DNA of 39,325 nt from Roseomonas sp. (lineage in GTDB: Bacteria > Pseudomonadota > Alphaproteobacteria > Acetobacterales > Acetobacteraceae), in assembly GCA_020249825.1 (NCBI GenBank), contig JADCEX010000084.1, positions 1-39,325 of the forward strand. The letters are read 5' to 3'. Positions within the stretch are counted from its first letter, which is position 1; the number at the start of each line of letters is the position of its first letter. The translations under genes were made by a program, and so were the position numbers. The notes below the pieces were generated by a model. It ran no database searches, was not told where the DNA came from, and saw only the letters and a program-made list of their open reading frames with translations. Of the stretch, positions 19,050-37,302 are shown in pieces.

Positions 19050-19098
19050 TCGCGCCAGGTCTCAGGCGCGGGTCGCGCGCGCGCGGGGATGCGCGCCG

Positions 19099-19116
19099 TG
19101 CGGACGACTGTCCGCA
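19099..19116. promoter_or_regulatory. Late-operon dyad 2 (TGCGGAC-N4-GTCCGCA) before the head operon
   Basis: The site has the same arms and spacing as 10654-10671. CATAAT directly follows and overlaps its end (19115-19120), a possible -10. The 100-bp stretch 19050-19149 has no gene, unlike the tightly packed rest of the operon, so a separate late promoter here is likely, matching the Mu promoter before gene I. Confidence 0.7.
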
Positions 19117-19152
19117 TAATTTCTGCAAGCCAGAACCGCCAGTAAGGCGGTG

Positions 19153-20681: not shown

Positions 20682-20696
20682 AGAAGGAACACCCAG

Positions 20697-21656: not shown

Positions 21657-21658
21657 TC

Positions 21659-21913: not shown

Positions 21914-21916
21914 TCC

Positions 21917-22366: not shown

Positions 22367-22998
22367 TCGGCGCGCTGGAAGACGCCATCATCTGCCGCCT
22401 GCGCGAAGCCTTTCAGGGCCGCGTGCGCGAAGTGGATCACAAGCCGGCAAAATTCGACGCGGATGAGCTGCTGCGCATTCTGACCATGGCGCCTGCGATT
22501 TACGTGGCCTTCCTGGGCTGGCAGCGCAGCGCGCGCCTGCCCGGCAGCGTGATGACCACCTTCGGCGTTTATCTTGTGGCGTCCAATGCCAGCGGTGAGC
22601 GCGCGCGCCGGCGCGGCGATGAAGCCACCATCGGCGCTTATGAAATGGCGGTCTGCACCGCTGCCAGTTTGGACCGCTGGGTGCCTGAAGGCGCCGCTGG
22701 CCCGATTGAAGTGCAGAGCTGCGAAAACCTTTACGCATCCGTCTTCGAAAAAAACGGCATCACCGTCTATGGCCTGGTCTGCGATGTGCCGGTGCAAATC
22801 CAGGATGATTGGGGCGTGCCGCAGATTGATGCTGGCGATGCCACCGGCGCGCCGCCATCCTTCCTGGATGATTTCATCACCTTCCATGCCGACCAAGACA
22901 TTCCGCCCTTCGGCAATGTCGCCACGCCCCCTCCCGCCCCGACATCCGGCGCCGATCGCGCCGATGCCGTGCTGCTCGTCACCCTTCCAACACCCTGA
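22363..22998 (+). CDS. Mu gp37-like protein (DUF1834)
   Basis: The 211-residue protein matches gp37: IGALEDAIICRLREAFQGRV, then APAIYVAFLGWQRSARLPGS, then GAYEMAVCTAASLDRW. It is likely a tail-completion or terminator protein at the head-tail joint. The last 50 residues are a proline-rich, probably flexible end (FGNVATPPPAPTSGADRADA). Confidence 0.85.
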   Translation: MIGALEDAIICRLREAFQGRVREVDHKPAKFDADELLRILTMAPAIYVAFLGWQRSARLPGSVMTTFGVYLVASNASGERARRRGDEATIGAYEMAVCTAASLDRWVPEGAAGPIEVQSCENLYASVFEKNGITVYGLVCDVPVQIQDDWGVPQIDAGDATGAPPSFLDDFITFHADQDIPPFGNVATPPPAPTSGADRADAVLLVTLPTP

Positions 22999-23007
22999 GG
23001 CGCCCCG

Positions 23008-23193
23008 ATGTTCGTGAAGCCTGCCCATCCTGACCTTTTGGTCGCCAACCCGGAAGCCCGCCCGCCCATGCCGCGCCATCTGCCGGCAGAAGGGGCCGAA
23101 GTGCCGGATACCCAATACTGGCGCCGCCGCATCGCCGATGGCGATGTGGTCCTGGCCCAGCCATCCAAGCGCCGCACTGGCGAAAAGGAGTAA
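23008..23193 (+). CDS. DUF2635 protein (Mu gp38-like)
   Basis: The 61-residue protein reads MFVKPAHPDLLVANPEARPP, then MPRHLPAEGAEVPDTQYWRR, then RIADGDVVLA. This is the usual DUF2635 form (V-x-P-x-L-x-V-P at the start, YW-x-RR-x3-GDV at the end). It stands directly before the tail sheath gene, as in Mu. Function is unknown. Confidence 0.88.
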   Translation: MFVKPAHPDLLVANPEARPPMPRHLPAEGAEVPDTQYWRRRIADGDVVLAQPSKRRTGEKE

Positions 23194-23196
23194 CCG

Positions 23197-24669
23197 ATGT
23201 CCGGTTCGATCAGCTTCAATAATATCCCGAACAGCATCCGCGTACCCGGCAGCTATGTGGAATTCGACAATTCGCGCGCCTTGCGCGGGTTGAATGATTG
23301 GCCCGCGCGTGTGCTGATCATGGGCCAGCGCCTGACCACGGGCACCATCGCGCAGGGCGTGCCGATCCGCGTGATTGATGCGGCCCAGGCCCGCACCTTC
23401 TTTGGGCGCGGCAGCAACCTTGCCCATATGTTTGAAGCCTGGTTCGCCAACCTTTCCCTGGTGGAAGTCTTTGGCATTGCCATGGATGATGTTGGCGGCG
23501 GCACCTTTGCCACCGGCACCATCACGGTCACCGGGCCTGCCACCGCCGCCGGCGTGATCGCGCTGATGATTGGCGGGCGGCGCATTGAAGTGCCGGTCGC
23601 GTCCGGCACGGCGGCCACCGCCATCGCCACCGCGATCAGCGCCGCCATCAACGCCGCGCTTGATCTGCCCGTCACCAGCGCGGTCGCGGCAGCGGTGGTG
23701 ACACTGACGGCGCGGCATCGCGGTGAGATTGGCAACGCGATTGATGTGCGCCATTCCTTCCTGGCGACGGATGTGCTGCCGCCAGGCACCGGCCTGACCA
23801 TTGTGGCCATGGCATCCGGCGCGCAAAACCCCGTGGTGACCACGGCGCTGGATGCGGTGGCGGAAACCTGGTTCACGGATTTCGTGACGCCCTGGACTGA
23901 CGCCACGAATATGGCCGCGCTTGAAGCGCGCATGGCCACCAATTGGGGGCCACTGGTGCAGCGCGATGGCCATGGCTGGGCGGGCCTATCCGGCGCGCAT
24001 GGCACGCTGACGACCTATGGCGCGGGCCGCAATTCGCCGAATGTCAGCATCATCGGCATGCGTGGTTCGCCCACGCCGCCCTGGGAATGGGCCGCGCAGC
24101 TTGCCAGCATCTGCATCCCCGCGCTGGCGATTGACCCGGCCCGCCCGGTGCAGACGCTGCAATTGCCGACGGTGGTGGCACCGCTGATCAGCCAGCGCTT
24201 CACCTTCCAGGAACGCGATTTGCTGCTGCGCGACGGCATCAGCACCTTCCGGGTGAATGATGCCGGCCAGGTGTTTGTGGAACGCGTGATCACCACCTAC
24301 CAGACCGCGCCTTCCGGTGCGGAAGACATCAGTTATTTGGATATCGAGACGGTGAAGACGCTGTCTTATATCCGCTACGATTTGCGCACCATGATTGCGC
24401 TGCGCTTCCCGCGCCACAAGCTGGCGAATGACGGCACGGCCTTTGCCCGCGGGCAGAATGTGGTGACGCCGGGCACGCTGCGGGCCGAAATTGTCGCGCG
24501 CTTCAAGCAATGGGAAGAAGCGGGCCTGGTCGAAGGCGTGGACCAATTCAAGCGGGACATCATCGTGGTGCGGAGCCAGAGCGACCCGAACCGCGTGGAT
24601 GCGCTGCTGCCGCCTGACCTGGTCAACCAATTCCGCGTGCTGGCCGCGCAAATCGAATTCCTGCTGTAA
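23197..24669 (+). CDS. L: Contractile tail sheath protein (Mu gpL-like)
   Basis: The 490-residue protein starts with the family opening (ISFNNIPNSIRVPGSYVEFD) and ends with a typical sheath C-terminus (ITTYQTAPSGAEDISYLDIE, then TLSYIRYDLRTMIALRFPRH, then VARFKQWEEAGLVEGVDQFK). The presence of a sheath shows a myovirus-type contractile tail. Confidence 0.95.
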   Translation: MSGSISFNNIPNSIRVPGSYVEFDNSRALRGLNDWPARVLIMGQRLTTGTIAQGVPIRVIDAAQARTFFGRGSNLAHMFEAWFANLSLVEVFGIAMDDVGGGTFATGTITVTGPATAAGVIALMIGGRRIEVPVASGTAATAIATAISAAINAALDLPVTSAVAAAVVTLTARHRGEIGNAIDVRHSFLATDVLPPGTGLTIVAMASGAQNPVVTTALDAVAETWFTDFVTPWTDATNMAALEARMATNWGPLVQRDGHGWAGLSGAHGTLTTYGAGRNSPNVSIIGMRGSPTPPWEWAAQLASICIPALAIDPARPVQTLQLPTVVAPLISQRFTFQERDLLLRDGISTFRVNDAGQVFVERVITTYQTAPSGAEDISYLDIETVKTLSYIRYDLRTMIALRFPRHKLANDGTAFARGQNVVTPGTLRAEIVARFKQWEEAGLVEGVDQFKRDIIVVRSQSDPNRVDALLPPDLVNQFRVLAAQIEFLL

Positions 24670-24686
24670 TTTGAGGAGAACGGGAC

Positions 24687-25046
24687 ATGCCGCAATTCCT
24701 GGGCCGCGCGACCATTCGCGCCAATGGGCAGGTGATCGAAACCGCCAAGGGTGCTTCGCTGGATGTGGGTGGCACCAAGCGCAACCCCGTCACGGTTGGC
24801 CGCGTGGTTGGCTGGTCCGAAGAAACCGTGCCCGCCATGGTCGAATGCGAAACCACGCTGCGCAGCGGCATGTCGCTGGAAACGCTGCGCCGCTTGGCGG
24901 GCGTGACGGTGATTTTCGAATGCGACACGGGCCAGCGCTACGTGATCAACGACGCCTTCCTGACGGATACGCCGACGATGAAGGACGGCGAAGGCGGGAA
25001 CATCACCCTGAAATTCTCAGGCCCTGCGGCTGAGGAAGTGCTGTGA
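24687..25046 (+). CDS. M: Tail tube protein (Mu gpM-like)
   Basis: The 119-residue protein follows the sheath behind TTGAGGAG. It reads GRATIRANGQVIETAKGASL, VGGTKRNPVTVGRVVGWSEE and MKDGEGGNITLKFSGPAAEE, matching the Mu M-type tube family. It forms the inner tail tube. Confidence 0.92.
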   Translation: MPQFLGRATIRANGQVIETAKGASLDVGGTKRNPVTVGRVVGWSEETVPAMVECETTLRSGMSLETLRRLAGVTVIFECDTGQRYVINDAFLTDTPTMKDGEGGNITLKFSGPAAEEVL

Positions 25047-25420
25047 TGCGCGCCACCATCAAGATCACGCTCAAGGAACCGATTGTGCTGCGCAACGCGG
25101 AAACCGGCGCGGAAGTGCATCGCATTGCGGAGATTGACTTCCGCGAACCGCGCGCGGGCGATATGGCGGCGGCGATGGATGCGGGCGGCGCCGGTGGCAC
25201 CGGCAGCATGATCCTGGCGCTGACCGCGAGCTGTTCCGGCCTGACGCGGGCGCAGGTGGATAATCTTTCGATTGATGATTTCTTCGCGATCTCCGAGGTC
25301 GCGACCAGTTTTTTGCAGCGTGGCCAGGAGACTGGCCAGAATGCTGCGAAATTGTCTGGGGCACCTTCGGGCTCGCTGCCGGATGGCAGCGCTGGAGTGC
25401 CGCCGAGCTTCGGTTCCTGA
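25046..25420 (+). CDS. Tail assembly chaperone, short form (Mu gp41-like)
   Basis: The 124-residue product of normal reading starts MRATIKITLKEPIVLRNAET and contains the EIDFREPRAGDMAAAMDA and LTRAQVDNLSIDDFFAISEV segments of the gp41 family. It probably coats the tape measure protein during tail assembly. A longer form is made by frameshift (next entry). The GTG at 25043 is less likely than ATG 25046. Confidence 0.9.
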   Translation: MRATIKITLKEPIVLRNAETGAEVHRIAEIDFREPRAGDMAAAMDAGGAGGTGSMILALTASCSGLTRAQVDNLSIDDFFAISEVATSFLQRGQETGQNAAKLSGAPSGSLPDGSAGVPPSFGS

Positions 25421-25464
25421 CGCAACGCGCGGTGGAATGGAACCGCCGCATGGCCGCGAGGTAG
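25046..25464 (+). CDS. Tail assembly chaperone, -1 frameshift long form
   Basis: A -1 shift on the heptamer T-TTT-TTG at 25309-25315 turns the ending into FFAAWPGDWPECCEIVWGTF, then GLAAGWQRWSAAELRFLTQR, then AVEWNRRMAAR, stopping at TAG 25462-25464. The new tail has the W-rich, helical look of the second chaperone domain in contractile-tailed phages (gp41/42 of Mu, G-GT of lambda), and it ends 8 bases before the tape measure gene. The -1 frame has no start of its own. Confidence 0.85.
25309..25315 (+). promoter_or_regulatory. Programmed -1 frameshift site (TTTTTTG)
   Basis: In the zero frame the reading is AGT TTT TTG CAG; both tRNAs can re-pair one base back on T-TTT-TTG, a canonical X-XXY-YYZ heptamer. 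The -1 frame is open from here for 50 codons and encodes a chaperone-like ending. It is the only T6 run in the gene. Confidence 0.85.
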
Positions 25465-25472
25465 TCATATAA

Positions 25473-27230
25473 ATGTCGGGTTCCCTCCGACTATCCATCC
25501 TGATCGAAGCGATTGACCGCGCATCGCAGCCCTTGGCGGCGTTGCAGGCGCGGCTTGGTGGCATTGCGGCAGGCATGCTGGCGGTGGGGCAGGCGGCGCA
25601 GCGGTTATCCAATGTGAGTGGCGCCAGTGTGCTGGCCGGTGCGCTGGGCAATGTGGCCGGGCGCGCGCGGGATGCGGCGGGGGCGGTGGCGGGGCTGAGT
25701 GCCAAGCTGGCAATCGGCGCGGCGGGTGGCGCGTTTCTGTTCAATCAGCAATTCGTGCGCGGCGCGGCGGATTTTCAGAATTATCAGGTGACGCTGGAAA
25801 CCGTGATGGGCAGCGCGGAAGCGGCCCAGGAACGGCTTCAACAATTGACCGAGTTTGCCAATCAAACCCCTTTCAATGTGGGTGAGGTCGTGAGAGCGGG
25901 CGTTTCATTACAGACGCTTGGCATTCGTGGCGAAGCTGCCGAGATGTCGCTGAAGGCGGCGGGCGACGCGGCTTCGGTTTTTGGCGGCGGCTTGGATCAG
26001 GCCATCAATGCCATGAATGCCGTGCTACGCGGCGAGAATGATCCCATCGAACGCTATGGCATCCAGGCGCGCACCGAAGGCCGTGCGGTGATGCTTAGCT
26101 GGATCGAGAATGGCCGCCAGATGCGCGCATCTGCTGACAAAAACAGCCGTTCAGAGGTTGCGCGGATTACCGCGATGGCGATGGCTGGCGTGGCACCCGA
26201 TGGGATGAGGCGCCGCGCGCAGACCTGGGATGGCATGCTTTCCAACTTGGCGGATGCCTGGTCCAACTTCACGCGCGCCGTCGCTACGTCAGGACCATTC
26301 CAATTTCTTCAGGACCAATTGAGAGACGTTCTAGCCTGGATTGAGAGGATGAAGACCGAAGGGCGCCTGGACCAATGGGCGCGGGATATTGGCGCAGGCA
26401 TCACGCGCGCCTTTGAAGCGGTGCGGCAATTCGTGGTCGGAACCGAGGACACACCGGGGGTCATTGATCGGCTTTCGAATGTCTTTGAGCGTGTTTCGCG
26501 GGTTCTGGCGCCGGTGGTGGAACGCTTCGGTGGCCTTGAAACCTTCCTTGCCGCGGTGGCGCTAGCACTCTCCGGTGGGTTGCTCACCTCCTTGGCTTCC
26601 CTCGCCGCGGCGATGACAACCCTTTCGGTGGCGTTGCTGCTGACCCCGGCTGGCTGGTTCATCGCGGCAACGGCGTTCTTCGCTGGGCTTGGTGTCGCGC
26701 TTTATCAGAACTGGGACAAGGTTGAGGCGCTTTGGTCGAGGCTTGGTGACGCCTTCCGTAACTTCCTCAATTCCGAACAGATGCAGGAAGCACAGCGCAT
26801 CTTTGGTGGCTTGGCTGATTTCATCATCGAGGCTTGGAATGGCGTAGGCCAAGTTTTCACCAATATCGGCGGCACCATTCAAAAGGTGTTCGCCGATGTG
26901 CTGGGCTACTTCCAGCCCGTGCGGGACGCGCTGAGTTGGGTGATGGACCGCGTGCCGGGTTTCGGCGGTGGCAGCAGCGCCCCCGCCGCGCCCTCACCGC
27001 GCGATGCTGGCCGGGGCAATGGCCTGCGGCGCCAATCCATCTATGGCGACAATGCCCTGCCGGATGGCGCGGGTGGCGGCGTGATGCCCCCGGCCAATGA
27101 CGTGCGGGTGCAAGCGGGCCTTGATGTGCAAATCCGCGCGCCGGAAGGCTTCGGTGTTTCCGTCACGCAGCGCGGCGCGGATGATGGCATGGCGCTGAAT
27201 GTGCGGCGCGGGATGCTGGCGACACCATGA
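25473..27230 (+). CDS. Tape measure protein
   Basis: The 585-residue protein has the usual tape measure N-terminus (EAIDRASQPLAALQARLGGI), a conserved TIGR01760-like section (FQNYQVTLETVMGSAEAAQE, FANQTPFNVGEVVRAGVSLQ, TLGIRGEAAEMSLKAAGDAA), then long helices and two hydrophobic stretches near residues 355-415 (LAAVALALSGGLLTSLASLA, then WFIAATAFFAGLGVAL). It sets tail length and may open a channel on injection. Residues 200-260 are locally less G/C-rich than the rest. Confidence 0.92.
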   Translation: MSGSLRLSILIEAIDRASQPLAALQARLGGIAAGMLAVGQAAQRLSNVSGASVLAGALGNVAGRARDAAGAVAGLSAKLAIGAAGGAFLFNQQFVRGAADFQNYQVTLETVMGSAEAAQERLQQLTEFANQTPFNVGEVVRAGVSLQTLGIRGEAAEMSLKAAGDAASVFGGGLDQAINAMNAVLRGENDPIERYGIQARTEGRAVMLSWIENGRQMRASADKNSRSEVARITAMAMAGVAPDGMRRRAQTWDGMLSNLADAWSNFTRAVATSGPFQFLQDQLRDVLAWIERMKTEGRLDQWARDIGAGITRAFEAVRQFVVGTEDTPGVIDRLSNVFERVSRVLAPVVERFGGLETFLAAVALALSGGLLTSLASLAAAMTTLSVALLLTPAGWFIAATAFFAGLGVALYQNWDKVEALWSRLGDAFRNFLNSEQMQEAQRIFGGLADFIIEAWNGVGQVFTNIGGTIQKVFADVLGYFQPVRDALSWVMDRVPGFGGGSSAPAAPSPRDAGRGNGLRRQSIYGDNALPDGAGGGVMPPANDVRVQAGLDVQIRAPEGFGVSVTQRGADDGMALNVRRGMLATP

Positions 27231-28510
27231 GCGAGGCACTGACCAGCATCGCCGGCCTTGCCTCTGCCCTGCCTTGGGTGGGCGCCAATCTGCGCCCTGG
27301 CGCTTTGCGGGGCCTGCTGTTCTACGTGCAGTCTTCGGAAGAAAATGCCACCCGTCGCTGGGTGACGCATGAATTCCCAGGCCGCGATGAAGCCTGGCAT
27401 GAAGACCTTGGCCAAAAGACCCGCAGCTTTTCTGTCGAAGGCCTGTTGGTGGGGCCGGATGTGGTGCTGCAATCCCGCGCCTTCGCCCGCGCCGCGGCAG
27501 ACCCTGAACCCGCGACGCTGCTGCATCCCTGGCTGGGCGCGATGCGCGTGGTGGTGCTGGATTGCCGCATCAGCCATGATGTGAACCAGGCGCGCGTGGC
27601 GCGGGTTTCGCTGCGGGTAGAGAAGGCCGGCACCAAGCCTGCGCCGGTGCTGGGCATTGATAGCCTGGGCGAAGTGCTGGATGAGGCTGACCGGCTGCTG
27701 ACCGCCGCGCAATCCGTCTATGCCGAGTATCGCTTCATGCGCGCGGCGGCGGATTTCATCATCCAAAGCTTCAAGGCCAGCGTGCTGGGGATCGCGGGCG
27801 CCATTGAAGGCGCGCTTTCCAATGCGGGGCTGGTGGGCGGTGCGGCAAGCAGTGTTTCCGCGCTGGCATCCGTGAATGATGCGGCGATTGTTTCCGATGT
27901 GGCGGTGCCGCTGGCGGTGGCTTCGGCGGCGCGGGATGTGTCCGCGCTGGCGGGTGGCCGCGCGGCACTGACGCGGGGCGCGGATGCGGCGCCGCAGGGC
28001 GCCTTCGCGGCGCTGGATGCGCTGAACGCCCAGGAATTGGTCAAGGCGCCGATCGGCGGCGCCACCACGCCCGCGCGCCAGCAATTGGCGGCGGCCAATG
28101 AAGGCCTGGCCGTGCTGGCGGCGGCGATATTCGCCGGCGAATTTGCCCGCGCCGCAGCGGCGGTGCCCTGGGCATCGCGCGATGAAGCCATGGTAGCGCG
28201 GGACAAGGTTTCTGATGCGCTGGCGGCGGCGGCAGACCGCGTGGCGGCGGCGGGATGGGATGCTGTGTGGCAGCGCCTGGTGGCCCTGCGCGCCGCCAGT
28301 GCCGCCGACCTGGCTGAGCGTGCGGCGCCGCTGCCGCGCATCAAGCGGCTGGAATTGCCCGGCGTGATGCCGGCCACGCTGATCGCGTATCGGCTGGATG
28401 GGGATAGTCTTTCCGATGTGTTTGGCCGCGCCGCCGCGCTTGCCGCGCGCAACCGCGTGCGGCATCCGGGCTTCGTGCCTGCCGCTCAGCCGATCGAGGT
28501 GCTGGTATGA
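27227..28510 (+). CDS. N: DNA circularisation/tail protein (Mu gpN-like)
   Basis: The 427-residue protein opens with the DNA_circ_N domain (RPGALRGLLFYVQSSEENAT, RRWVTHEFPGRDEAWHEDLG, KTRSFSVEGLLVGPDVVLQS). The rest is alanine-rich and helical. In Mu, N is a tail protein that also helps protect and circularise injected DNA. Start and stop overlap both neighbours as ATGA. Confidence 0.92.
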   Translation: MSEALTSIAGLASALPWVGANLRPGALRGLLFYVQSSEENATRRWVTHEFPGRDEAWHEDLGQKTRSFSVEGLLVGPDVVLQSRAFARAAADPEPATLLHPWLGAMRVVVLDCRISHDVNQARVARVSLRVEKAGTKPAPVLGIDSLGEVLDEADRLLTAAQSVYAEYRFMRAAADFIIQSFKASVLGIAGAIEGALSNAGLVGGAASSVSALASVNDAAIVSDVAVPLAVASAARDVSALAGGRAALTRGADAAPQGAFAALDALNAQELVKAPIGGATTPARQQLAAANEGLAVLAAAIFAGEFARAAAAVPWASRDEAMVARDKVSDALAAAADRVAAAGWDAVWQRLVALRAASAADLAERAAPLPRIKRLELPGVMPATLIAYRLDGDSLSDVFGRAAALAARNRVRHPGFVPAAQPIEVLV

Positions 28511-29640
28511 GCAGCGCCATCGCCGCGACCGTGGAATTGACCGTGGATGGCCTGACCTATCGCGGCTGGCGCAGCATGAAATGCAGCCTTGGGCTGGATG
28601 CGGCGGCGGCGGAGATCTCCATTGAAATGGCGGAACGCTGGGCCGGTGCGGAAGATGCCGCGCAGATCGCGCGCAGCATCCGCCCGGGTGCGGCATTCCT
28701 GCTGACGCTGGAAGGTGAAGGCGTGGTGGAAGGCTTCCTGGATGCGCTGGAAGTTGCCTATGACGCCACCAACCACACGTTGACCGTGCGCGGCCGCGAA
28801 CGCACCGCTGATCTGGTGGATTGCGCGGCGACCGTGGATGGCCCGTATGAATGGGCGAATATCGGTCTGGAAGAAGCGGCGCGGCGCATCGCCGAACCCT
28901 ATGGGATTGAAGTGCGCGCGGAAGCGGATTTGGGTAAAGCCTTCCCGCGCTTTTCGATCCAGCCAGGCGAAGCGGCGTGGGAGGCCATTGCGCGGGCCGC
29001 ACGCGAACGCGCGGTGATCGCGACCGGCGATGGCCTGGGCACGCTGATCCTGACGCGCGCGGGCGAAGGCGGTGAAGCCGCCGGCGCGCTGCGCTTGGGC
29101 GGGAAGGATGGCAATATCCTGCGCGCCAATGGCAGCTTTGATGTCGCCGAACGCCACAACCTGGTTGTGGTGCGTGGCCAGGCGCAGGGCGAGACTTCCG
29201 CCAGCCAGGGCGAAGCGCGCGCGACTGATGAAGACATCATCCGCCACCGCCCGAAGGTGATTTTGGCGGAAGCGCAGGGCGAAGGCGTTACCTTTCAGGA
29301 TCGCGCCGCGCATGAAGTGCGGGTGGCGGCAGGGAAGTCTCGGCGCGTCCGCTACACCGTGCCGGGCTGGCGCGGTTCTTCCGGCAATCTTTGGCTGCCG
29401 AATACAAAGGTGTGGGTGGAAGACGCCTTCCTGGAATTGAAGCGCGAATTGCTGATCTCAAACGTGACGTTCAGCCTGACGGAACAAGGCACCGTCACGG
29501 AATTGCAAGTCGCGCCCGTGGATGCCTATGCCCTGCTGCCTGAACCCGGCAAGGGCGGCGGCGGCGAAAGCGGGCCTTTCGAGACCAAGATCGAAACCCG
29601 CGAGAATGATCGTGACGCCTGGAAGCGGGTGGCCGAATGA
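28507..29640 (+). CDS. P: Baseplate hub protein (Mu gpP, gp44-like)
   Basis: The 377-residue protein reads VELTVDGLTYRGWRSMKCSL, HTLTVRGRERTADLVDCAAT, AFPRFSIQPGEAAWEAIARA and EDAFLELKRELLISNVTFSL, matching the Mu P / GPD hub family. It forms the central tail hub above the spike. Confidence 0.92.
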   Translation: MSSAIAATVELTVDGLTYRGWRSMKCSLGLDAAAAEISIEMAERWAGAEDAAQIARSIRPGAAFLLTLEGEGVVEGFLDALEVAYDATNHTLTVRGRERTADLVDCAATVDGPYEWANIGLEEAARRIAEPYGIEVRAEADLGKAFPRFSIQPGEAAWEAIARAARERAVIATGDGLGTLILTRAGEGGEAAGALRLGGKDGNILRANGSFDVAERHNLVVVRGQAQGETSASQGEARATDEDIIRHRPKVILAEAQGEGVTFQDRAAHEVRVAAGKSRRVRYTVPGWRGSSGNLWLPNTKVWVEDAFLELKRELLISNVTFSLTEQGTVTELQVAPVDAYALLPEPGKGGGGESGPFETKIETRENDRDAWKRVAE

Positions 29641-30206
29641 CGCTGGATGAAATGAAGCGCTTCATCGCCCCTTTGCAGCGCCGCGTGATGCTGGCGATTG
29701 GGCGCGGCACGCTTGGGCCGGTGAATGATGCTGATGGCCTGCAGCGCAGCCAGGTGAAGCTGCTGGCCGGCGAAGTGCGGGACAATGTGGAACGCATCCA
29801 ACCTTATGGATTTTCCGCTGTTCCGCTGCCCGGCGCGGATGTGCTGGTGGTGTGCGTCGGCGGCAACCGCGACCATCCCGTGATCATTGGCGTGGATGAC
29901 AGGCGCCACCGCCCGACCGGGCTGCAACCCGGCGATGTCTGCATCTATTCGTATCAGACCGGCCACAAAATCCTGCTGAAGGCGGACCGCAAGATTGAAA
30001 TTGAGGGTGATGAAATCACCATCAAAGCCGACACTAAGATCACTTTGGAAGCGCCTTTGGTGGAAGTGACCGGCGCCTTGGATGTGCTGGGCGATATCCG
30101 CGACCGCGCGGCTTCCGGTGGCATGTCCATGAATGGCATGCGCGCCGATTACAACAGCCACGTGCATGGCGGGAGCCCGGGGCCCAGCCCGGCGATGGCG
30201 CCATGA
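29637..30206 (+). CDS. Baseplate spike protein (Mu gp45, gpV-type)
   Basis: The 189-residue protein has an OB-like start (LQRRVMLAIGRGTLGPVNDA), GADVLVVCVGGNRDHPVIIG, a beta-helix of short repeats (DRKIEIEGDEITIKADTKIT) and an HxH tip motif (NSHVHGGSPG) near the C-terminus that would hold iron. It is the membrane-piercing spike. Confidence 0.92.
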   Translation: MTLDEMKRFIAPLQRRVMLAIGRGTLGPVNDADGLQRSQVKLLAGEVRDNVERIQPYGFSAVPLPGADVLVVCVGGNRDHPVIIGVDDRRHRPTGLQPGDVCIYSYQTGHKILLKADRKIEIEGDEITIKADTKITLEAPLVEVTGALDVLGDIRDRAASGGMSMNGMRADYNSHVHGGSPGPSPAMAP

Positions 30207-30625
30207 TCGCGCTGGAATGGAACAGCACCGTGGGTGCGGCGGATTTGGCGCTGAATGCCACCGGCGCGCTGGCGAAGGATGACGCGCTGCAAACCGCTGT
30301 TGTGCTTTCGCTGTTCACCGACGCGCGCGCGCGGCCTGATGATGGTGCTGAAGGTGATCGGCGCGGCTGGGTGGGCGATGCCTTTGCCCCGGAAGATCGC
30401 TACGGGTCGCGGTTGTGGCTGCTGCGGCGCGAAAAGCAAACCGAAGAAACCCGCCGCCGCGCCGAAGACTACGCCAATGAAGCGCTGGCCTGGTTGGTGG
30501 ATGCCGCGCTGGCCACCGATGTTTCGGTGACCGCCGAATGGGTGGCGCGTGGCGTGCTTGGCCTTGCGGTGCGGATCGCCACACCAAGCGGCATTGAAAC
30601 CAGCCAGTTTACAATGAGGCTCTGA
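30203..30625 (+). CDS. Baseplate wedge protein (Mu gp46-like)
   Basis: The 140-residue protein reads ALEWNSTVGAADLALNATGA, then LQTAVVLSLFTDARARPDDG, then RRGWVGDAFAPEDRYGSRLW and ETRRRAEDYANEALAWLVDA, which fits the gp46 family. It overlaps the spike gene by 4 bases. Confidence 0.92.
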   Translation: MIALEWNSTVGAADLALNATGALAKDDALQTAVVLSLFTDARARPDDGAEGDRRGWVGDAFAPEDRYGSRLWLLRREKQTEETRRRAEDYANEALAWLVDAALATDVSVTAEWVARGVLGLAVRIATPSGIETSQFTMRL

Positions 30626-30627
30626 AG

Positions 30628-31677
30628 ATGCCCTTTGCCCGCCCTTCGCCCGCTGAAATTCGTGATCGCATGGGCGCCGAAATTGCGGTGGCGCTGCCCG
30701 GTGCGGATGCGCGGCTGCGGCGTTCCATGGAAGAAGTGCTGGTGCGCGCCATCGCCATCGCCAGCCATGAATTGCACAGCCACATTGAATGGGCGGCGCT
30801 GCAAATTCTGCCCGATACTGCGGAAGATGAAGTGCTGGCGCGCCACGCGGCGATTTGGGGCATCACGCGCATCACCGCCACGGCGGCATTGGGCAGCGTT
30901 ACCTTCACCGGGACGCCCGGCGCGGTGGTGCCGGCGAATACGGAACTGCGGCGCGGCGATGATGCGCGCTTTCTGCTGGCGGCGGATGTCACCATCGCCG
31001 GCGGCGGCAGCGGCACGGGCAATGTGGCCGCGCGGGTGGCGGGCGCGGCAGGCAATAGCCAGGCCGGGATCAGCCTGGCGCTGGTGGCGCCGGTGGCGGG
31101 CATTGCGCCCAGCGCGACCGTGGCGGCGGGTGGCCTTGCCGCTGGCGCCGATGCGGAAAGCGATGCAGGCCTGCGCGCGCGGCTGTTGCAGCGCATTCAA
31201 TCACCGCCGGCGGGCGGTGCCAGCAATGATTATGTGACCTGGGCGCTGGCTGTCGCCGGTGTGGAACGCGTTTGGGTTTATCCGAATTGGCTGGGCGCCG
31301 GCACGGTTGGCGTGGCGTTTGTCACCACAGGTGGCGCGATCCCTGCCGCGCCCTTGGTTGCAGCCGTGCAGGCCGCGCTGGATGCGCGCCGGCCCGTGAC
31401 GGCTGCGGTGACGGCCTTCGCCCCGGCAACGCAGGCCGTGGCGCTGACGATTGATCTGGCGGTGGATACGGCGGCAATCCGCGCGGCGGTGCTGGCCGAA
31501 TTGGCTGATTTCTTCGTGCGGGAAGCAGAGCCCGGCGGCACCATCCGCGTATCGCGTATCTCGGCCGCCATCAGCGGCGCGCTGGGCGAAGTGGCGCATC
31601 TGCTGGTGGCACCCGCCGCCGATATCACCCTGCCTGCGGGCACCATCGCCACGCTTGGCGCCGTCACCTGGGCGTGA
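30628..31677 (+). CDS. Baseplate J-like protein (Mu gp47-like)
   Basis: The 349-residue protein starts RPSPAEIRDRMGAEIAVALP and contains ASHELHSHIEWAALQILPDT, FTGTPGAVVPANTELRRGDD, LLQRIQSPPAGGASNDYVTW and VERVWVYPNWLGAGTVGVAF, standard for gpJ/gp47 baseplate wedge proteins. Confidence 0.94.
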   Translation: MPFARPSPAEIRDRMGAEIAVALPGADARLRRSMEEVLVRAIAIASHELHSHIEWAALQILPDTAEDEVLARHAAIWGITRITATAALGSVTFTGTPGAVVPANTELRRGDDARFLLAADVTIAGGGSGTGNVAARVAGAAGNSQAGISLALVAPVAGIAPSATVAAGGLAAGADAESDAGLRARLLQRIQSPPAGGASNDYVTWALAVAGVERVWVYPNWLGAGTVGVAFVTTGGAIPAAPLVAAVQAALDARRPVTAAVTAFAPATQAVALTIDLAVDTAAIRAAVLAELADFFVREAEPGGTIRVSRISAAISGALGEVAHLLVAPAADITLPAGTIATLGAVTWA

Positions 31678-31680
31678 CCG

Positions 31681-32928
31681 ATGGATAGCAGCGCCTATCT
31701 TTCCCAACTTCTGGCCCTGCTGCCGCCAGGTGATGCGCTGGCGCGGGAGCCTGGTTCTGTTCTGGAACGGCTGCTGACGGTGCCTGCGGCGGAATTGGCG
31801 CAGGTGGATGGCCGCGTGGAAGCGCTGCTGGCGGAAAGTGACCCGGCGCGTACAGCGGAAATGCTGGCCGATTGGGAACGCGCGCTTGGCCTGCCCGATG
31901 AATGCTACCCGAATGAGAGCTTCAGCCGAGCATCGCGCGCCTGGTACTTTGATGGCGCGGGCGTGCTGCGCGAAGCGGCGGTGGATGAACCGCGCTATCT
32001 GTTTGATGCGGCGGGCCTGCGCACGGAAGCGGTGTTGGTGGAAGCGGCGGCCACGAATTATGTGCGACAGCCCTATTATCAGGCTGCGGTGGCTGGGGCG
32101 TGGATACAAGCGCAGGGCACTGCTGTAGCCAGCCTGACGCCGAACTTCGCCCAAAGCCTTGACGGGTTAAACCGCGCGGCCAGGGTGCGATGGGTTGGAC
32201 CTAATAACGGTGATGTACTGCTGCTGCGATTTCCGACAAGTGGCGTTCCGGCCAATACGCCAAACACCATCAGTTTTTGGGTTTTCACCCGCAGCCTGGG
32301 TAATCTGACGCAAATCAGGGTTGATGCTGGCGATTTCGGCCTTCCAACCGGCAATCTGATCGCCCAATTTCAGGTCGGGGCTTGGCGGCGGGTGCTTGGG
32401 CAGGTGACGCCCAGCCCGTCTTCCAGCGCATGGATGGATTTGAACTTTACTGGTTTCACCGCTGGTGAAATTGACCTCGACATATTTGGTGTGCAGGTGG
32501 AGGTCGGCGATGCAGCAAGCAGCCTTATTCTGCCATCCGCCCCGGCGACCACCGGCCCTACCACCCGCGCGGCGGATCAGCGCTATGTGGCGACCGTTGC
32601 GGAACGCCGCGCGCGCATTCTGGCGCGGCTGATTGAACGGTTTGAGCCGACACCTGCCGCCATCATCGGCCTGGCGGCGCGCCTTGGCGATAACGTCACG
32701 CTGACGGAATTCACCCCGCATGACTGCGAAGACGCCTGCGAAGCGCCGCTGCTGGATGAGGCTTGGGCGCATGCCTTCCAGGTGGCGGGTGGCGCGCAGT
32801 TGGTGGTGGAATTCACCTGCGAAGATGGCTGCGAAACACCGCTCAGCCAATGGCGCACCGGTGCCTATGAATGCGCGATCCGCCGCTTTGCCCCGGCGCA
32901 TACCGTGCCGATTTTCAGCTATGCGTAA
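31681..32928 (+). CDS. Mu gp48-like tail protein with inserted adhesin-like module
   Basis: Residues 1-78 (YLSQLLALLPPGDALAREPG, then AEMLADWERALGLPDECYPN) and 300-415 (ATVAERRARILARLIERFEP, then IIGLAARLGDNVTLTEFTPH) together form a normal gp48/DUF2313 protein of about 190 residues. Between them lies an extra module of about 220 residues (about 31918-32577): SRASRAWYFDGAGVLREAAV, then EPRYLFDAAG, then AATNYVRQPYYQAAVAGAWI, a pattern seen in phage carbohydrate-binding/head-fibre domains. The insert is less G/C-rich. It would sit on the baseplate rim and may add receptor binding. Confidence 0.88.
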   Translation: MDSSAYLSQLLALLPPGDALAREPGSVLERLLTVPAAELAQVDGRVEALLAESDPARTAEMLADWERALGLPDECYPNESFSRASRAWYFDGAGVLREAAVDEPRYLFDAAGLRTEAVLVEAAATNYVRQPYYQAAVAGAWIQAQGTAVASLTPNFAQSLDGLNRAARVRWVGPNNGDVLLLRFPTSGVPANTPNTISFWVFTRSLGNLTQIRVDAGDFGLPTGNLIAQFQVGAWRRVLGQVTPSPSSSAWMDLNFTGFTAGEIDLDIFGVQVEVGDAASSLILPSAPATTGPTTRAADQRYVATVAERRARILARLIERFEPTPAAIIGLAARLGDNVTLTEFTPHDCEDACEAPLLDEAWAHAFQVAGGAQLVVEFTCEDGCETPLSQWRTGAYECAIRRFAPAHTVPIFSYA

Positions 32929-32940
32929 AGGAAACACACC

Positions 32941-34053
32941 ATGCAGCGCGTAACTCGATCCTCAGCGGTCGCCACCATGCCGGCGCCGCCGGTTTCACCT
33001 GGTGCCCCTGGGTTTTTCAGCGGCGGAAATCCGGGCGGCGGGACGCCCGCGACCACGCCGGGCTTTGAGTGGTTCAATTCCGTGCAGGAGGAATTGATGG
33101 CCCTGATCCTGCGCGGTGGCATCACCGCTTCCAATGCTGATTTGGCCCAGGTGCGGAAATCGCTTGATCGGCTGTTTGGTGGTGGCCTCGGCAGTTTTTC
33201 GGCCAACACCACGCTGAGCGTGGATGATGCTGGCCTGGTGCTGGTGAATGCCAGCGGCGGCGCGCGGACCATCACGCTGCCGGCGGCAAATGCGCTGGGC
33301 GGCCGGCCGATCCGCTATCAGATTGAGAAAACGGACAGCACCGCGAATGCCGTCACGGTGCAGCGCGCCGGTTCGGATACGATTGAAGGTGCCACATCCG
33401 TGGTGCTGTCCGGCCAATGGGCCAGCGTGACGCTGGTGTCCGACGGTGTCGGTGCATGGGTGGCGCTGTCCAGCGGTGATCAGTTGCCGGTCGGGTCTAT
33501 CCTGCACTTCCCAGGTACAACAGCGCCGACGGGTTGGCTAAAGGCGAATGGCGCGCTGATCAGCCGCGCGACCTTTTTCAATTTATGGGCTGTGGCGCAA
33601 GCGTCCGGCAATTTAGTGACAGATGCGGCTTGGGTGGCGGCCAATGGGCCGACCGGCGCATTTAGCCAAGGGGATGGAAGCACAACATTCAGGATACCGG
33701 ACTTACGCGGTGAGTTTATTCGCGGATTTGACGATGGGCGCGGTGCTGATGCTGGTCGCGGGATTGGCACGTTCCAGAATGGTCAGCTGCTAAGCCACGG
33801 ACACGCAGTATCCGATGCCGGCCACCAACATTGGAGTGGCGTGAATAATGGCGGCGGCGGTGATTACTATGGTTCTAGTGCACCTGTGAATCCGACGAAC
33901 AGTGCAGCGTCCAGATATTCGCTGCTTGGTGGGCTGACGAGCAATACCTCGCACCTGACTAGCCCGCAGCAGACCGGCATCACCATCGCGAACACTGGCG
34001 GTGCTGAGAACCGGCCGCGGAACATCGCGCTTCTTGCCTGCATCAAATTTTGA
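32941..34053 (+). CDS. Tail fibre with tail-collar domain
   Basis: The 370-residue protein has an N-terminal part common to Mu-like fibres (GGGTPATTPGFEWFNSVQEE, LMALILRGGITASNADLAQV) and a C-terminal collar domain: LPVGSILHFPGTTAPTGWLK, STTFRIPDLRGEFIRGFDDG, then SHGHAVSDAGHQHWSG and ENRPRNIALLACIKF. The His-x-His pairs suggest metal binding at the tip. The last 190 codons are clearly richer in A/T than the head genes, which fits host-range exchange. Confidence 0.9.
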   Translation: MQRVTRSSAVATMPAPPVSPGAPGFFSGGNPGGGTPATTPGFEWFNSVQEELMALILRGGITASNADLAQVRKSLDRLFGGGLGSFSANTTLSVDDAGLVLVNASGGARTITLPAANALGGRPIRYQIEKTDSTANAVTVQRAGSDTIEGATSVVLSGQWASVTLVSDGVGAWVALSSGDQLPVGSILHFPGTTAPTGWLKANGALISRATFFNLWAVAQASGNLVTDAAWVAANGPTGAFSQGDGSTTFRIPDLRGEFIRGFDDGRGADAGRGIGTFQNGQLLSHGHAVSDAGHQHWSGVNNGGGGDYYGSSAPVNPTNSAASRYSLLGGLTSNTSHLTSPQQTGITIANTGGAENRPRNIALLACIKF

Positions 34054-34068
34054 GAAGGGGAAAACAGC

Positions 34069-34602
34069 ATGGATATCTACAGCTATCATCCTGTGACGGG
34101 CGATTTTCTTGGCGCCACAAAGGCTGATCCGAACCCCATTGTGCCGGGTGACTGGTTGATCCCCGCATTTGCCACAGCGACCGTACCGCCAGTGGTTGCC
34201 GAAGGTGAAGTGATTATCTGGAATGGCGAGGCCTGGTCCGTGCAATTGCAGCCCCCGCCGCTCGCGGTTGAGCCGGAAACGCCTCCGCCCGTGCTCCCGC
34301 CAGTTGAGCCGCCGCCGCCCACCGATGTGAGTTTTTGGCAATTCATGCTGGCGGCGTGGAAGCTGAATTTCATCACGCATGCGGAGGCGATGGCCGCCGT
34401 GCGCCAGCGCATCATGCCGCCAGCCTTTGCGCAGGCCATCGCGGGCCTGCCCGCCGAGGCCAAGTTGGCAGCGGAACTGAAATTCGCCGGCATCACGCGC
34501 ATGCTGCGGTCTGATCCGCTGTTTGGCCTGGTGGTGGAGGCGAATATCGCCACCGATGAACAAATTGATGGTGTGTTCGCCGTGGCGGCGGCCATCACAT
34601 GA
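34069..34602 (+). CDS. Tail fibre partner/assembly-type protein
   Basis: The 177-residue protein directly follows the fibre gene behind GAAGGGGA. It starts with YSYHPVTGDFLGATKADPNP, similar to the opening of fibre assembly chaperones, has a proline-rich linker (PETPPPVLPPVEPPPPTD) and a helical end (FWQFMLAAWKLNFITHAEAM). A role in folding or capping the fibre is likely from position. Confidence 0.72.
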   Translation: MDIYSYHPVTGDFLGATKADPNPIVPGDWLIPAFATATVPPVVAEGEVIIWNGEAWSVQLQPPPLAVEPETPPPVLPPVEPPPPTDVSFWQFMLAAWKLNFITHAEAMAAVRQRIMPPAFAQAIAGLPAEAKLAAELKFAGITRMLRSDPLFGLVVEANIATDEQIDGVFAVAAAIT

Positions 34603-34991
34603 ACGGCAAGCTTCGCCTGATTTTGGATGAATTGGCGCGACCCAGCGCGCAAAAGGCGGATTGGTTTGCCTGGGCCGCTGCGCAATTGGCGCATGCAATG
34701 ATCGGCGTGGCGCTGGCGGGTGCGCTGGCCTTCCTGCTGCCCGCCGTGTGGGCCTTTGCCATCGCGGCGCTGGGCTATGCGGTGGCGAAGGAATTGCCGG
34801 ATTATCGGCGCGCACCTGGTTGGGCTGCCGCACGGGATGGCGTGCAGGACGCGGCGTTTGTCGCCGCCGGCGCCTCGCTGGCCGTCGCGATCCATGGTGC
34901 GGATGGCCTGCTGTTTGGCCTGGTGCTGGGCGCGGCCGCTGCGGGCCTGGCTGCCGGCGTTTGGGTGCGGCTGCCCGCGCAGCCTGGCTGA
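34599..34991 (+). CDS. Small multi-span membrane protein
   Basis: The 130-residue protein has about three hydrophobic segments (QLAHAMIGVALAGALAFLLP, AVWAFAIAALGYAVAKE, LLFGLVLGAAAAGLAAGVWV) and a conserved-looking ELPDYRRAPGWAAARDGVQD loop. It overlaps the previous gene by 4 bases and ends at a hairpin. No family was recognised. Membrane proteins here in other phages include superinfection-exclusion and lysis helpers, but nothing proves either. Confidence 0.68.
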   Translation: MNGKLRLILDELARPSAQKADWFAWAAAQLAHAMIGVALAGALAFLLPAVWAFAIAALGYAVAKELPDYRRAPGWAAARDGVQDAAFVAAGASLAVAIHGADGLLFGLVLGAAAAGLAAGVWVRLPAQPG

Positions 34992-35005
34992 TTTTCGTGA
35001 ATGGC

Positions 35006-35031
35006 ACCCCGCCTGAAAAATAGGCGGGGGT
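35006..35031 (+). terminator. Hairpin at the end of the structural operon
   Basis: CCCCGCCT (35007-35014) and AGGCGGGG (35022-35029) form an 8-bp G/C-rich stem with a 7-base A-rich loop. No T-run follows, so it may weaken rather than stop transcription or protect the mRNA end. The rest of the gap to 35135 shows only a ribosome site (AAAGG) for dam. Confidence 0.55.
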
Positions 35032-35135
35032 CCTGGCCGCTGTCACGGCCTGGAACCGAGAGTTGCGACCTCTCACGGGAAAACCCGCCCCGCCCAGCCG
35101 GGCCGGCATGGGGTGCATACTCCAAAGGTCTGCTG

Positions 35136-35954
35136 ATGTTAACGCCTGAACTCACGCCTGCTCGCCCTGCGGTCCCTGTGGCCGCGTGGATGGGGGGTAA
35201 GAAACTACTCGCGAAGCGGATTATCGAACGCATCGCGGTGATTCCGCACACGACGTACGTGGAGCCATTTATCGGGATGGGCGGCGTGTTCCTGCGTCGT
35301 CCCTTCCGGGCCAAGGCTGAGGCTATCAACGATCTATCCGGCGATGTGGCCAATCTGTTCCGGGTGCTGCAACGGCACTTTGAGCCGTTTTTGGATATGT
35401 TGAGATGGCGCCTGACCAGCCGGGAGGAATTCCACCGGCTGATGGCGTTGGAACCGACCAGCCTGACCGATTTGGAGCGGGCGGCGCGCTTCATTTACCT
35501 GCAAAGGGTGAGTTGGGGTGGCAAAGTGACCGGGCGGACCTTCCAGGTCAGCCTGACCAACCCCGGCAAATTCAACTTGCCGAGGCTGGTGACGGTGCTG
35601 GAAGAAGTGCATGAACGCCTGGCCGGGGTGGTGATTGAAAACCTGCCCTATGACCAGCTGATCCCGCGCTATGACCGGCCTGAGACGCTGTTCTACCTGG
35701 ACCCGCCTTATTGGGGGTGTGAGGGCGTCTATGGCGCGGAGCTTTTCAGCCGGGAAGAATTCACCCGGCTGGCTGAGCTGCTGAGGGGGATCAAAGGGCG
35801 GTTTATCCTGTCGCTCAATGACCATCCCGGCGTGCGGAAGTGCTTCGCCGGGTTCGAGATGGAGGTGGTGGAGACCACCTACGCCATGGGCTACCGCACC
35901 GGGAAAGAGACGCAGCGCGTGCGAGAGCTGCTGATATCCAACACGGGTAAGTAG
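35136..35954 (+). CDS. Dam-type DNA adenine methyltransferase (D12 class)
   Basis: The 272-residue protein has an N-terminal AAWMGGKKLLAKRIIERIA, the SAM-binding YVEPFIGMGGVFLRRPF (residues 41-57), a variable target region and the catalytic DPPY at residues 189-192, followed by GRFILSLNDHPGVRKCFAGF. It would methylate the N6 of adenine in a short site, possibly GATC. A modification gene at the right end takes the place of mom in Mu and would help phage DNA avoid restriction. ATG 35136 has AAAGG upstream. A strong terminator follows. Confidence 0.92.
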   Translation: MLTPELTPARPAVPVAAWMGGKKLLAKRIIERIAVIPHTTYVEPFIGMGGVFLRRPFRAKAEAINDLSGDVANLFRVLQRHFEPFLDMLRWRLTSREEFHRLMALEPTSLTDLERAARFIYLQRVSWGGKVTGRTFQVSLTNPGKFNLPRLVTVLEEVHERLAGVVIENLPYDQLIPRYDRPETLFYLDPPYWGCEGVYGAELFSREEFTRLAELLRGIKGRFILSLNDHPGVRKCFAGFEMEVVETTYAMGYRTGKETQRVRELLISNTGK

Positions 35955-35961
35955 GGGATGG

Positions 35962-36003
35962 GTGGCGCCGTTCCGATTTTTTGGCGCGGCGCCACTTTTT
36001 TTT
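35962..36003 (+). terminator. Strong rho-independent terminator after dam
   Basis: GTGGCGCCG (35962-35970) pairs perfectly with CGGCGCCAC (35987-35995), followed by eight T (35996-36003). It ends the late transcript and separates it from the right-end cassette promoter that begins two bases later. Confidence 0.9.
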
Positions 36004-36004
36004 G

Positions 36005-36034
36005 TTGACGTGCGATACACCGCACGTGTATAGA
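36005..36034 (+). promoter_or_regulatory. Sigma-70-like promoter with embedded operator, right-end cassette
   Basis: TTGACG (36005-36010) and TATAGA (36029-36034) are 18 bp apart. Between and partly over them lies ACGTGCG-N6-CGCACGT (36008-36027), a perfect 7-bp dyad placed to block polymerase. The promoter is near consensus and needs no phage activator, so the cassette is probably expressed in the lysogen. The HTH protein at 36772-37170 is a natural candidate to bind it. Confidence 0.82.
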
Positions 36035-36080
36035 ATGCGCATCGCAGCGGAATGGTCCGCCGCATGAGGGGATAGCCCAG

Positions 36081-36401
36081 ATGAAGATCATCATTACCCG
36101 TACCGCCAACCGCGCATTATATCGCGACCTACAAAAATCGATTGACGGTCAGTGGACCCACCGCACTGTAAATGCTGCGGCTCGGCGACTGATCTGGCTG
36201 GCACGAAGCGGCGATAGGCTGGCGAAATCCGTGGGGAATTGGGGTGGTATCTCTATCCAGATAGATGGCGAGGATGTCTGTGAATTCGACGTTTCGCACT
36301 TCTGGATGCTGGCGTGTGAGTGTGCCCGAGAAGGCAGTGACTGGGAGCTCGTCAAAGCGCTGACCACGGCGGCGGAAGCGGTTAAGGGTGAGGGGGCTTG
36401 A
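36081..36401 (+). CDS. Unknown protein, first gene of the right-end cassette
   Basis: The 106-residue protein reads KIIITRTANRALYRDLQKSI, then TVNAAARRLIWLARSGDRLA, then VCEFDVSHFWMLACECAREG. It is soluble, with no signal or membrane span. Its gene is richer in A/T than the structural genes. It follows the strong promoter, behind a leader of about 40 bases with GAGGGG before ATG. No family was recognised. Confidence 0.72.
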   Translation: MKIIITRTANRALYRDLQKSIDGQWTHRTVNAAARRLIWLARSGDRLAKSVGNWGGISIQIDGEDVCEFDVSHFWMLACECAREGSDWELVKALTTAAEAVKGEGA

Positions 36402-36402
36402 G

Positions 36403-36768
36403 ATGACGCGCAACACGATCCCCGCCACCGATAACCAAGACTGGGGCTTCTGGGGCACCATGGCGGAACACGCCTCTGCCGCCTGGCCAATCGCGTCCAA
36501 GGCCATTCGGGAAGCCACCGATACCGACCCGCACGCGGTACGCGCCTTCCTTGATAGCCGCTACGGGCGCCACTTCGCGGATGGGGTGAATTGCCAGATG
36601 CATCACGGCGCGAGCCTTGCTGACGCCATCGCCAAGACGACCGCCGAATGGATGGGCTGGCGCATCACGCGCCGCACCAGCCGCGAAACGGGCATCCCCG
36701 CGGGCCTGCCTTATCTGACCGGCTTCGTGATGAACGAGGCCATCGCGGCAGAAGCCTTGGAGGAGTAA
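36403..36768 (+). CDS. Conserved protein, second gene of the right-end cassette
   Basis: The 121-residue protein reads RNTIPATDNQDWGFWGTMAE, VRAFLDSRYGRHFADGVNC, ADAIAKTTAEWMGWRITRR and RETGIPAGLPYLTGFVMNEA. Proteins with the GFWGTM and SRYGRHFAD motifs are common, uncharacterised, on alphaproteobacterial plasmids and other mobile elements. This suggests the cassette moves between elements. The start follows the previous stop by 1 base, with GAGGGGG upstream. Function is unknown. Confidence 0.78.
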   Translation: MTRNTIPATDNQDWGFWGTMAEHASAAWPIASKAIREATDTDPHAVRAFLDSRYGRHFADGVNCQMHHGASLADAIAKTTAEWMGWRITRRTSRETGIPAGLPYLTGFVMNEAIAAEALEE

Positions 36769-36771
36769 CGG

Positions 36772-37170
36772 ATGACCCCCTACCGCCTTTTGCTGTTTCG
36801 CGTCGGTCTTTCCCAGGCCGAAGCGGCTGCGCTGCACGACGTGCGGTTGGACACCGTTAAATCCTGGTGTGCTGGCCGTAACCCTGTGCCGGCAGGCGTG
36901 ATGGCGGAACTCCGCGCGCTACACGCGTTCCAGCGGCGATCGGCTGATGAGGCTTTGGCGCTGGCGGCTAAGGCGCCTGAGGGCGCTGAGATTGAGCTTG
37001 GCTACGCGGTGGATGACGCTGAGGCTCAGGCTCTCGGCTGGCCCTGCGCGGCCGCGCAGCATGCGTCCCTGGGCATGGTGGTGGCGCGCTTGGGGCGGCC
37101 CGTGCGCCTGGTGCCGCGCGGCACCACCCTGGCCACGGCAGCGGCTGCTGATGCTCATGAGGCGCGGTGA
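36772..37170 (+). CDS. HTH regulator-like protein, third gene of the right-end cassette
   Basis: The 132-residue protein has an N-terminal XRE-like helix-turn-helix (YRLLLFRVGLSQAEAAALHD, then VRLDTVKSWCAGRNPVPAG). The rest has a VDDAEAQALGWPCAAAQHAS segment and a C-terminal strand-rich end. A strong ribosome site (GGAGGAG) precedes ATG. As the only DNA-binding protein of the cassette it may act on the dyad in the cassette promoter. Confidence 0.78.
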   Translation: MTPYRLLLFRVGLSQAEAAALHDVRLDTVKSWCAGRNPVPAGVMAELRALHAFQRRSADEALALAAKAPEGAEIELGYAVDDAEAQALGWPCAAAQHASLGMVVARLGRPVRLVPRGTTLATAAAADAHEAR

Positions 37171-37190
37171 CGGGCAACGCGATGGGTATC

Positions 37191-37218
37191 AAAAAGGGGC
37201 CTTTGAGGCCCCCTTTTT
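37191..37218. terminator. Bidirectional-type terminator at the right end of the phage
   Basis: AAAAAGGGGCC (37191-37201) and GGCCCCCTTTTT (37207-37218) form a strong stem with a 5-base loop and one bulged C. A-run before and T-run after mean it can act in both directions, shielding the cassette from host transcription and the reverse. Confidence 0.85.
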
Positions 37219-37243
37219 GCTGCTCAAAGACCCGGCTGATCAA

Positions 37244-37285
37244 TTGCGGACAGGGGTGCGGAACCGCTTGTCAATTTGTCCGCAA
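37244..37285. repeat. Inverted repeat near the right terminus (candidate transposase sites)
   Basis: TTGCGGACA (37244-37252) and TGTCCGCAA (37277-37285) are perfect 9-bp arms 24 bp apart, ending 17 bp before the phage end. The inner part CAATTTGTCC (37272-37281) resembles, in reverse, the GACAAAAATTG core of the left-end repeats. They are the best candidates for the right-end transposase sites. The stretch 37219-37302 has no phage gene. Confidence 0.6.
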
Positions 37286-37302
37286 GGTTCTGGCGCGCTA
37301 CA

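Follow-up and report, generated by a model that had tools for sequence, protein, structure and literature searches.

The last three genes of a Mu-like prophage in Roseomonas sp. are best explained, with a probability of about 0.6, as a portable, self-limiting expression unit of the Aca2 type that carries anti-defence genes. The analysed stretch of 39,325 nucleotides (hereafter the window; contig C404 of genome G000) holds this cassette near its right-hand end, and the cassette was also found on two contigs of the same genus (G034:C46 and G007:C60). The original prediction had described a self-contained, regulated accessory unit, with three genes behind a promoter and between flanking terminators. 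All of these parts were present in the ORF list, the folds and the promoter hexamers (Table 1), and the reading as a regulated unit was strengthened by the predicted Aca2 fold of the third gene product, by an operator conserved together with that gene and by passenger genes that vary. On the same basis, its idea of an anti-defence role was kept as the leading guess. Neither the leader RNA element nor the Aca2-like fold of g3 had been part of that prediction.

Table 1 Features of the cassette and of the prophage that carries it
Feature	Coordinates	Strand	Evidence
Mu-like prophage carrying the cassette	256..37302	.	Mu genes, end sequences, target duplication
Insulating terminator between the methyltransferase gene (35001-35954) and the cassette	35955..36004	+	Fold -28.4 kcal/mol, z -5.3
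Promoter: TTGACG (36005-36010), 18-bp spacer, TATAGA (36029-36034)	36005..36034	+	9/12, by eye
Putative operator TACAC-N5-GTGTA	36016..36030	.	Kept in 31/47 distinct loci; single copy in the window
Leader hairpin SL1, GCAGCGGA-AUGG-UCCGCCGC	36044..36063	+	Hairpin scan, family covariation; own match weak
Leader hairpin SL2 with Shine-Dalgarno (GGGGATAGCCC)	36068..36078	+	Fold, family alignment
g1, 106-aa orphan passenger, low GC	36081..36401	+	Searches, coding statistics, replaced in relatives
g2, 121-aa passenger, phrog_8020 (GFWGTM protein), predicted all-helical	36403..36768	+	E 4.2e-40
g3, 132-aa two-domain HTH protein with Aca2/YdiL/SO3848 fold, proposed autorepressor	36772..37170	+	Profile and structure comparison
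Terminator past the cassette	37190..37220	+	Fold -17.2 kcal/mol, z -3.1

As listed in Table 1, the three open reading frames (106, 121 and 132 aa) lie on the same strand and are separated by gaps of only 1 nt and 3 nt, with the ATG at 36403 taken as the start of g2. A terminator scan of 35800-37400 found three terminator-like sites against 1.3 expected. The promoter was recognized by eye and is omitted by the promoter scan, since its second hexamer has a final A; for 22 of the 31 family operators, a TTGA lies no more than 14 nt before the site. The related locus L048 lacks the start ATG of the window's g3 at the corresponding position (about 2998-3016), and its listed ORF begins further in.

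The element carrying the cassette has the marks of a Mu-like transposable phage. Pfam matches to Mu transposase, MuB, Mu portal, Mu F, tail sheath and gpP-like genes lie within it, the 5-bp target duplication ATCAC flanks it at 251-255 and 37303-37307, and its ends read TGTTAC at the start and CTACA at the finish. The right end is supported because L048, L049, L040 and the window share their last bases through CTACA and run into different host DNA just beyond. A host mgtC-like gene is split by the prophage, with the MgtC domain on the left and the MgtC_SapB C-terminal domain on the right; of the host genes at 37607-39000, one matches von Willebrand A and another DnaJ, both weakly and below the Pfam cut-offs. 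Within the phage, the Mu F-like head protein (16812-18062) has, at its C terminus, a nuclease-like domain of the PBECR2 type (Pfam E 2.4e-29). The cassette is the final unit before the right prophage end and is preceded by a D12/Dam-type methyltransferase gene. In phage Mu, the right end carries com/mom, accessory genes beside a DNA-modification gene; the cassette has a comparable neighbour in the same part of its phage, but here the modification gene is of the D12/Dam type and a terminator lies between the two.

The regulator was examined by profile and structure comparison. The best match of the g3 profile among 177,635 distinct PDB sequences was Aca2 (E 8.3e-4), and comparison with Aca2 of Pectobacterium phage ZF40 gave E 6.8e-5 with a probability of 63.5. 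The predicted g3 model aligned across both domains with SO3848, Aca2 and YdiL, and showed the N-terminal HTH and C-terminal dimerisation domain of the Aca2 fold. The Pfam score for Aca2/YdiL (PF08965) was under the gathering cut-off (18.7 vs 23.8 bits, E 0.002). YdiL (1S4K) and SO3848 (2OX6) are said in PMC8434428 to lie outside prophages and to have no known function, whereas g3 sits in a phage operon with passengers. In the families Aca1 to Aca10, as in the cassette, an HTH gene comes behind small genes and the core promoter contains an inverted repeat, although Aca10 and Aca1 matched g3 over the HTH only. These results suggested that g3 would act as an autorepressor, with binding of DNA and RNA and repression proposed by likeness to Aca2.

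A perfect 7-bp dyad, ACGTGCG-ATACAC-CGCACGT, had been put forward as the operator. The dyad is exactly there in the window (36008-36027). In the four other loci with this promoter type (L005, L006, L041 and L042), however, the arms are never intact and vary while TACAC and GTGTA stay; the conserved inverted repeat is TACAC-N5-GTGTA. This repeat was spotted in the first relatives, where it was common to two unlike promoter types and exact except in L040 (one mismatch), and was afterwards tested on a larger set of loci. Of 51 loci, a count that takes in duplicates and the window, 34 have the exact operator no more than 1200 nt upstream of the regulator, and the 256 kb of the same loci contain it nowhere else. 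Once duplicates L063, L085 and L096 were excluded (L070-L072 kept in), 47 distinct loci had 100 nt or more of upstream sequence; the operator occurred in 31 of them, compared with none in 50 dinucleotide shuffles of each. When all 5-bp inverted repeats with spacers of 3-8 were counted, it was by far the commonest (31/47); the next, at 22, was the same site shifted, followed by 6. The newly added loci had it in 17 of 23 distinct cases, and a control of 80 g2-bearing viral loci (430 kb) contained it once, in L118, which is the contig of cassette L042/L058.

Upstream sequence of 600 nt or more was available for 44 loci, and 14 of these had no exact operator. One mismatch was seen in L056, L067 and L081, and operator variants of the AACAC/GACAC type were seen by eye in L065 and L066. 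L070-L072 are without the exact operator, and their HTH proteins are without the family signature DT[VI]K[SN]W; the remaining exceptions are L051, L054, L061, L078, L080 and L087. Two loci with more distant regulators, L099 and L100, have a similar leader hairpin but TGTACA-type promoter repeats, which suggests that operator and regulator diverged together. According to PMC9410906, acr-aca operons carry a single inverted repeat or a pair, of which one lies inside the core promoter, and the cassette has its inverted repeat in that position.

A leader RNA element was found downstream of the operator. In 32 distinct operons a hairpin follows, with an 8-position stem (some with 1-2 mismatches) and a loop of 4-5 nt, most commonly AUUGG (11) or AUGG (6); this count taken alone is biased, since the script chose the best hairpin of each leader. 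Many family leaders also hold the Shine-Dalgarno inside a second hairpin. A leader model (R1) built from 18 leaders and searched over 50 loci gave 34 matches at E <= 0.1, namely the 18 and 16 held-out leaders. The held-out leaders all scored E <= 0.068, 12 of the 16 at E <= 4e-4, with L093 and L056 being near relatives of training rows. Leaders were matched at L061, L065, L066, L067, L080 and L081 despite the lack of an exact operator, and nothing better than E 0.45 was found in the 430-kb control. In the 34 aligned leaders, 90.4% of cells pair, compared with 76.9% when shuffled, and the covariation score was 0.335 against 0.138 for shuffled (0/500 as high) and at most 0.079 for slid alignments, values that lean toward the model because the alignment was fitted to it. 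The family leaders thus have covarying hairpins like those of Aca2-type leaders, and at the level of the family the element is firmly supported.

The leader of the window itself matched at E 0.16, at the expected place and as the only match in 39 kb, with 13.2 bits against 15.8 for the best background, and it folded no better than shuffles (z -0.66). The leader of L048, where nearby DNA is 94-87% homologous to the window, scored E 0.068. Judged by position and by this homology, the window leader is probably a divergent variant of the element.

The closest known arrangement is the acrIF8-aca2 operon of ZF40, which likewise has a small variable gene followed by an Aca2-fold gene, with the regulator fold alike over both domains. 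Its leader has a promoter inverted repeat, then GGUUCGAG-AUGG-CUCGAAUC, and then a Shine-Dalgarno hairpin in the fold. The two systems differ in the operator (TTCGC..GCGAA in ZF40, TACAC-N5-GTGTA in the window cassette) and in their hairpin stems; the regulators are 16-22% identical in structural alignments, model R1 gave no match to the ZF40 leader, and the window cassette has two passengers whose functions are not known. The Aca2 probe printed in PMC9410881 contains a GATTCGAG-ATTGG-CTCGAATC hairpin. The loops of this probe and of ZF40 are the same as in the family leaders, whereas the stems are different. Seven further Aca2-like loci were inspected by eye and with the hairpin scan: a promoter repeat and then a hairpin were seen in L190, L194 and L195 (loops AAGGG, AUUAG and AAUAAG), the hairpin of L191 is weaker, L193 departs from this pattern, and L188 and L189 allowed no verdict. 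No report on the cassette family was found in literature listings restricted to open-licence papers.

In contrast to the constant control parts, the passengers are exchanged. Homology of the window DNA with L048, L049, L041 and L042 spans the promoter and the leader and stops at 36084, at the g1 start codon; it resumes at 36369 (L048) and 36388 (L049), in the last codons of g1, at 36427 within g2 (L042), and at 36772 (L041). In all four loci g1 is replaced by other genes. By eye, the control kit is also placed elsewhere, before a terminase-large-subunit-like gene in L042 and beside a lysozyme-like gene in L041. A simple ORF caller applied to 33 operons yielded 39 passenger ORFs, which single-linkage grouping placed in 23 clusters; the duplicate pair L095/L096 was kept in this set, L056 has one operator mismatch, and L088 gave no passenger. 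The largest cluster is bridged by the fused gene of L058 (430-1110, on the same contig as L042), where a passenger is joined in frame to a g2-like protein in one ORF of 216-226 aa. In L050 (2892-3000) and also in L037, a stretch like the start of g2, matching window positions 36372-36447, lies between passenger and regulator and is possibly a deletion remnant.

A type II toxin-antitoxin module, with g1 or g2 as toxin and g3 as antitoxin and autorepressor, could account for a small gene followed by an HTH gene with the operator in the promoter, and PMC9410906 reports that Aca2 resembles the antitoxin MqsA. This explanation is very unlikely, for such systems match one antitoxin family to one toxin family, and here a single regulator family stands against 23 passenger clusters and could hardly be the matched antitoxin to all of them; moreover, MqsA aligned with the g3 model over about 59 residues only, the closest full-length folds being Aca2, YdiL and SO3848. 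The constant operator, leader and regulator with swapped passengers fit instead an Aca-type self-repressing cassette, and, as in acr-aca operons, variable small genes and then an HTH gene form one operon on a mobile element.

The original prediction had called for co-occurrence of all three genes elsewhere, which was not borne out: g1 was found in 1 of 99 related genomes, its own, and no relatives of it were found in the viral contigs, phages or plasmids searched. Its GC content is 56.7%, compared with 64.0% for the phage, and its coding statistics are weak, although of the six frames its own scores best. What co-occurs is the operator, the leader and g3, joined in the nearest prophages by g2. 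The description of g2 as plasmid-type held in so far as relatives were present in 6 of 72,556 plasmid records, but they were also found in 7 of 50,697 phage records, in 17 of 99 related genomes and in at least 105 of 600 candidate stretches of viral contigs. Five genomes (G000, G005, G015, G020 and G025) have 4 to 6 g2 matches each, with about 81-84% identity where full length, the window copy aside; this multiplicity indicates that the g2 family rides on repeated elements in the genus. A context script placed g2 in 13 of 22 loci, and a ParB/methylase-like neighbour was seen by eye in 10 of these 13 viral loci; two of them, when scanned, contained the domains N6_N4_Mtase and ParB_N, and DUF3489 was confirmed for two neighbours. 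The predicted all-helical fold of g2 had no clear relative in structure comparison. Its neighbours elsewhere point to restriction and methylation as the arena of the cassette's target.

These neighbours bear on a narrower form of the preferred reading, with which its odds overlap, namely a strict anti-CRISPR operon whose g1 and/or g2 would block the CRISPR-Cas systems of the host group. Aca2-like control speaks for it, and of 35 same-genus genomes 7 have Cas1. We consider it improbable, since Cas1 is absent from all four carriers in the genome set searched (G000, G007, G024 and G034), no known Acr was matched by the passengers, and g2 adjoins methyltransferase genes elsewhere. When 33 representative passengers (g1 included, g2 left out) were searched, there was no convincing match, the best being E 0.01 in Pfam, 0.003 in NCBIfam and 0.002 in PHROGs. 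The absence of any anti-defence family among these matches would suit another explanation, in which the same regulator and circuit serve general phage accessory genes for host takeover, superinfection exclusion or lysogenic conversion. It would also suit the figure given in PMC9410906, where upstream acr genes are present for only 3% (35/1223) of Aca2-like proteins. We regard a general accessory role as unlikely, although less so than the strict anti-CRISPR form, because rapid turnover of small genes, unrelated to one another, at a single locus together with an Aca2-like regulator is the acr-aca pattern.

The portable Aca2-type cassette with an anti-defence payload is therefore preferred. Gene order, operator conservation, the covarying family leader, the predicted fold of g3 and the exchange of g1 at its start codon, all read from sequence, would be consistent with the following scheme. 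Upon phage entry the strong promoter would fire at once and the leader mRNA would be translated, so that g1, g2 and g3 are made. Dimers of g3 would then bind TACAC-N5-GTGTA between the -35 and -10 hexamers and turn transcription off. A 2024 paper in Nature reportedly described RNA binding by Aca2, acting on a leader hairpin, and by analogy g3 probably also binds SL1 through its AUGG/AUUGG loop, which would keep ribosomes off the Shine-Dalgarno held in SL2. An autorepressed strong promoter of this kind suggests a burst of expression on infection, followed by a low level; the original prediction had the unit likely at work in the lysogen. The control parts resemble those of anti-CRISPR clusters and recur in dozens of viruses with other passengers, so the passengers are good candidate anti-defence genes. 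Association alone makes anti-defence the most likely payload. Several results weigh against this explanation, including passengers lacking known anti-defence relatives in the three databases, the small share of Aca2-like proteins with upstream acr genes in that source, carriers lacking Cas1, the sub-threshold Pfam score of g3, the weak leader of the window, the failure of R1 to match ZF40, the loci lacking an exact operator, and the weak coding statistics of g1.

With these results, a single cassette becomes a testable family with a defined operator, an RNA element, a structurally recognizable regulator and 23 passenger clusters, whose small uncharacterised proteins likely act between phage and host. 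As Aca2-like proteins are mostly without known acr neighbours in PMC9410906, the cassette set offers a definite starting point for finding out what such proteins regulate. The family could also show how far the RNA-plus-DNA control reported for one Aca2 reaches. At slightly less than even odds, we suggest that the cassettes form a large regulon, whose known hosts are mostly Alphaproteobacteria and in which one kit of operator, two-hairpin leader and Aca2-like DNA- and RNA-binding regulator serves more than 20 unrelated anti-defence clusters. If this is true, two-level control would be old and generally shared among Aca2-type proteins, and the combination of operator, leader and regulator would serve as sequence bait in the search for anti-defence genes where a host has no known ones.
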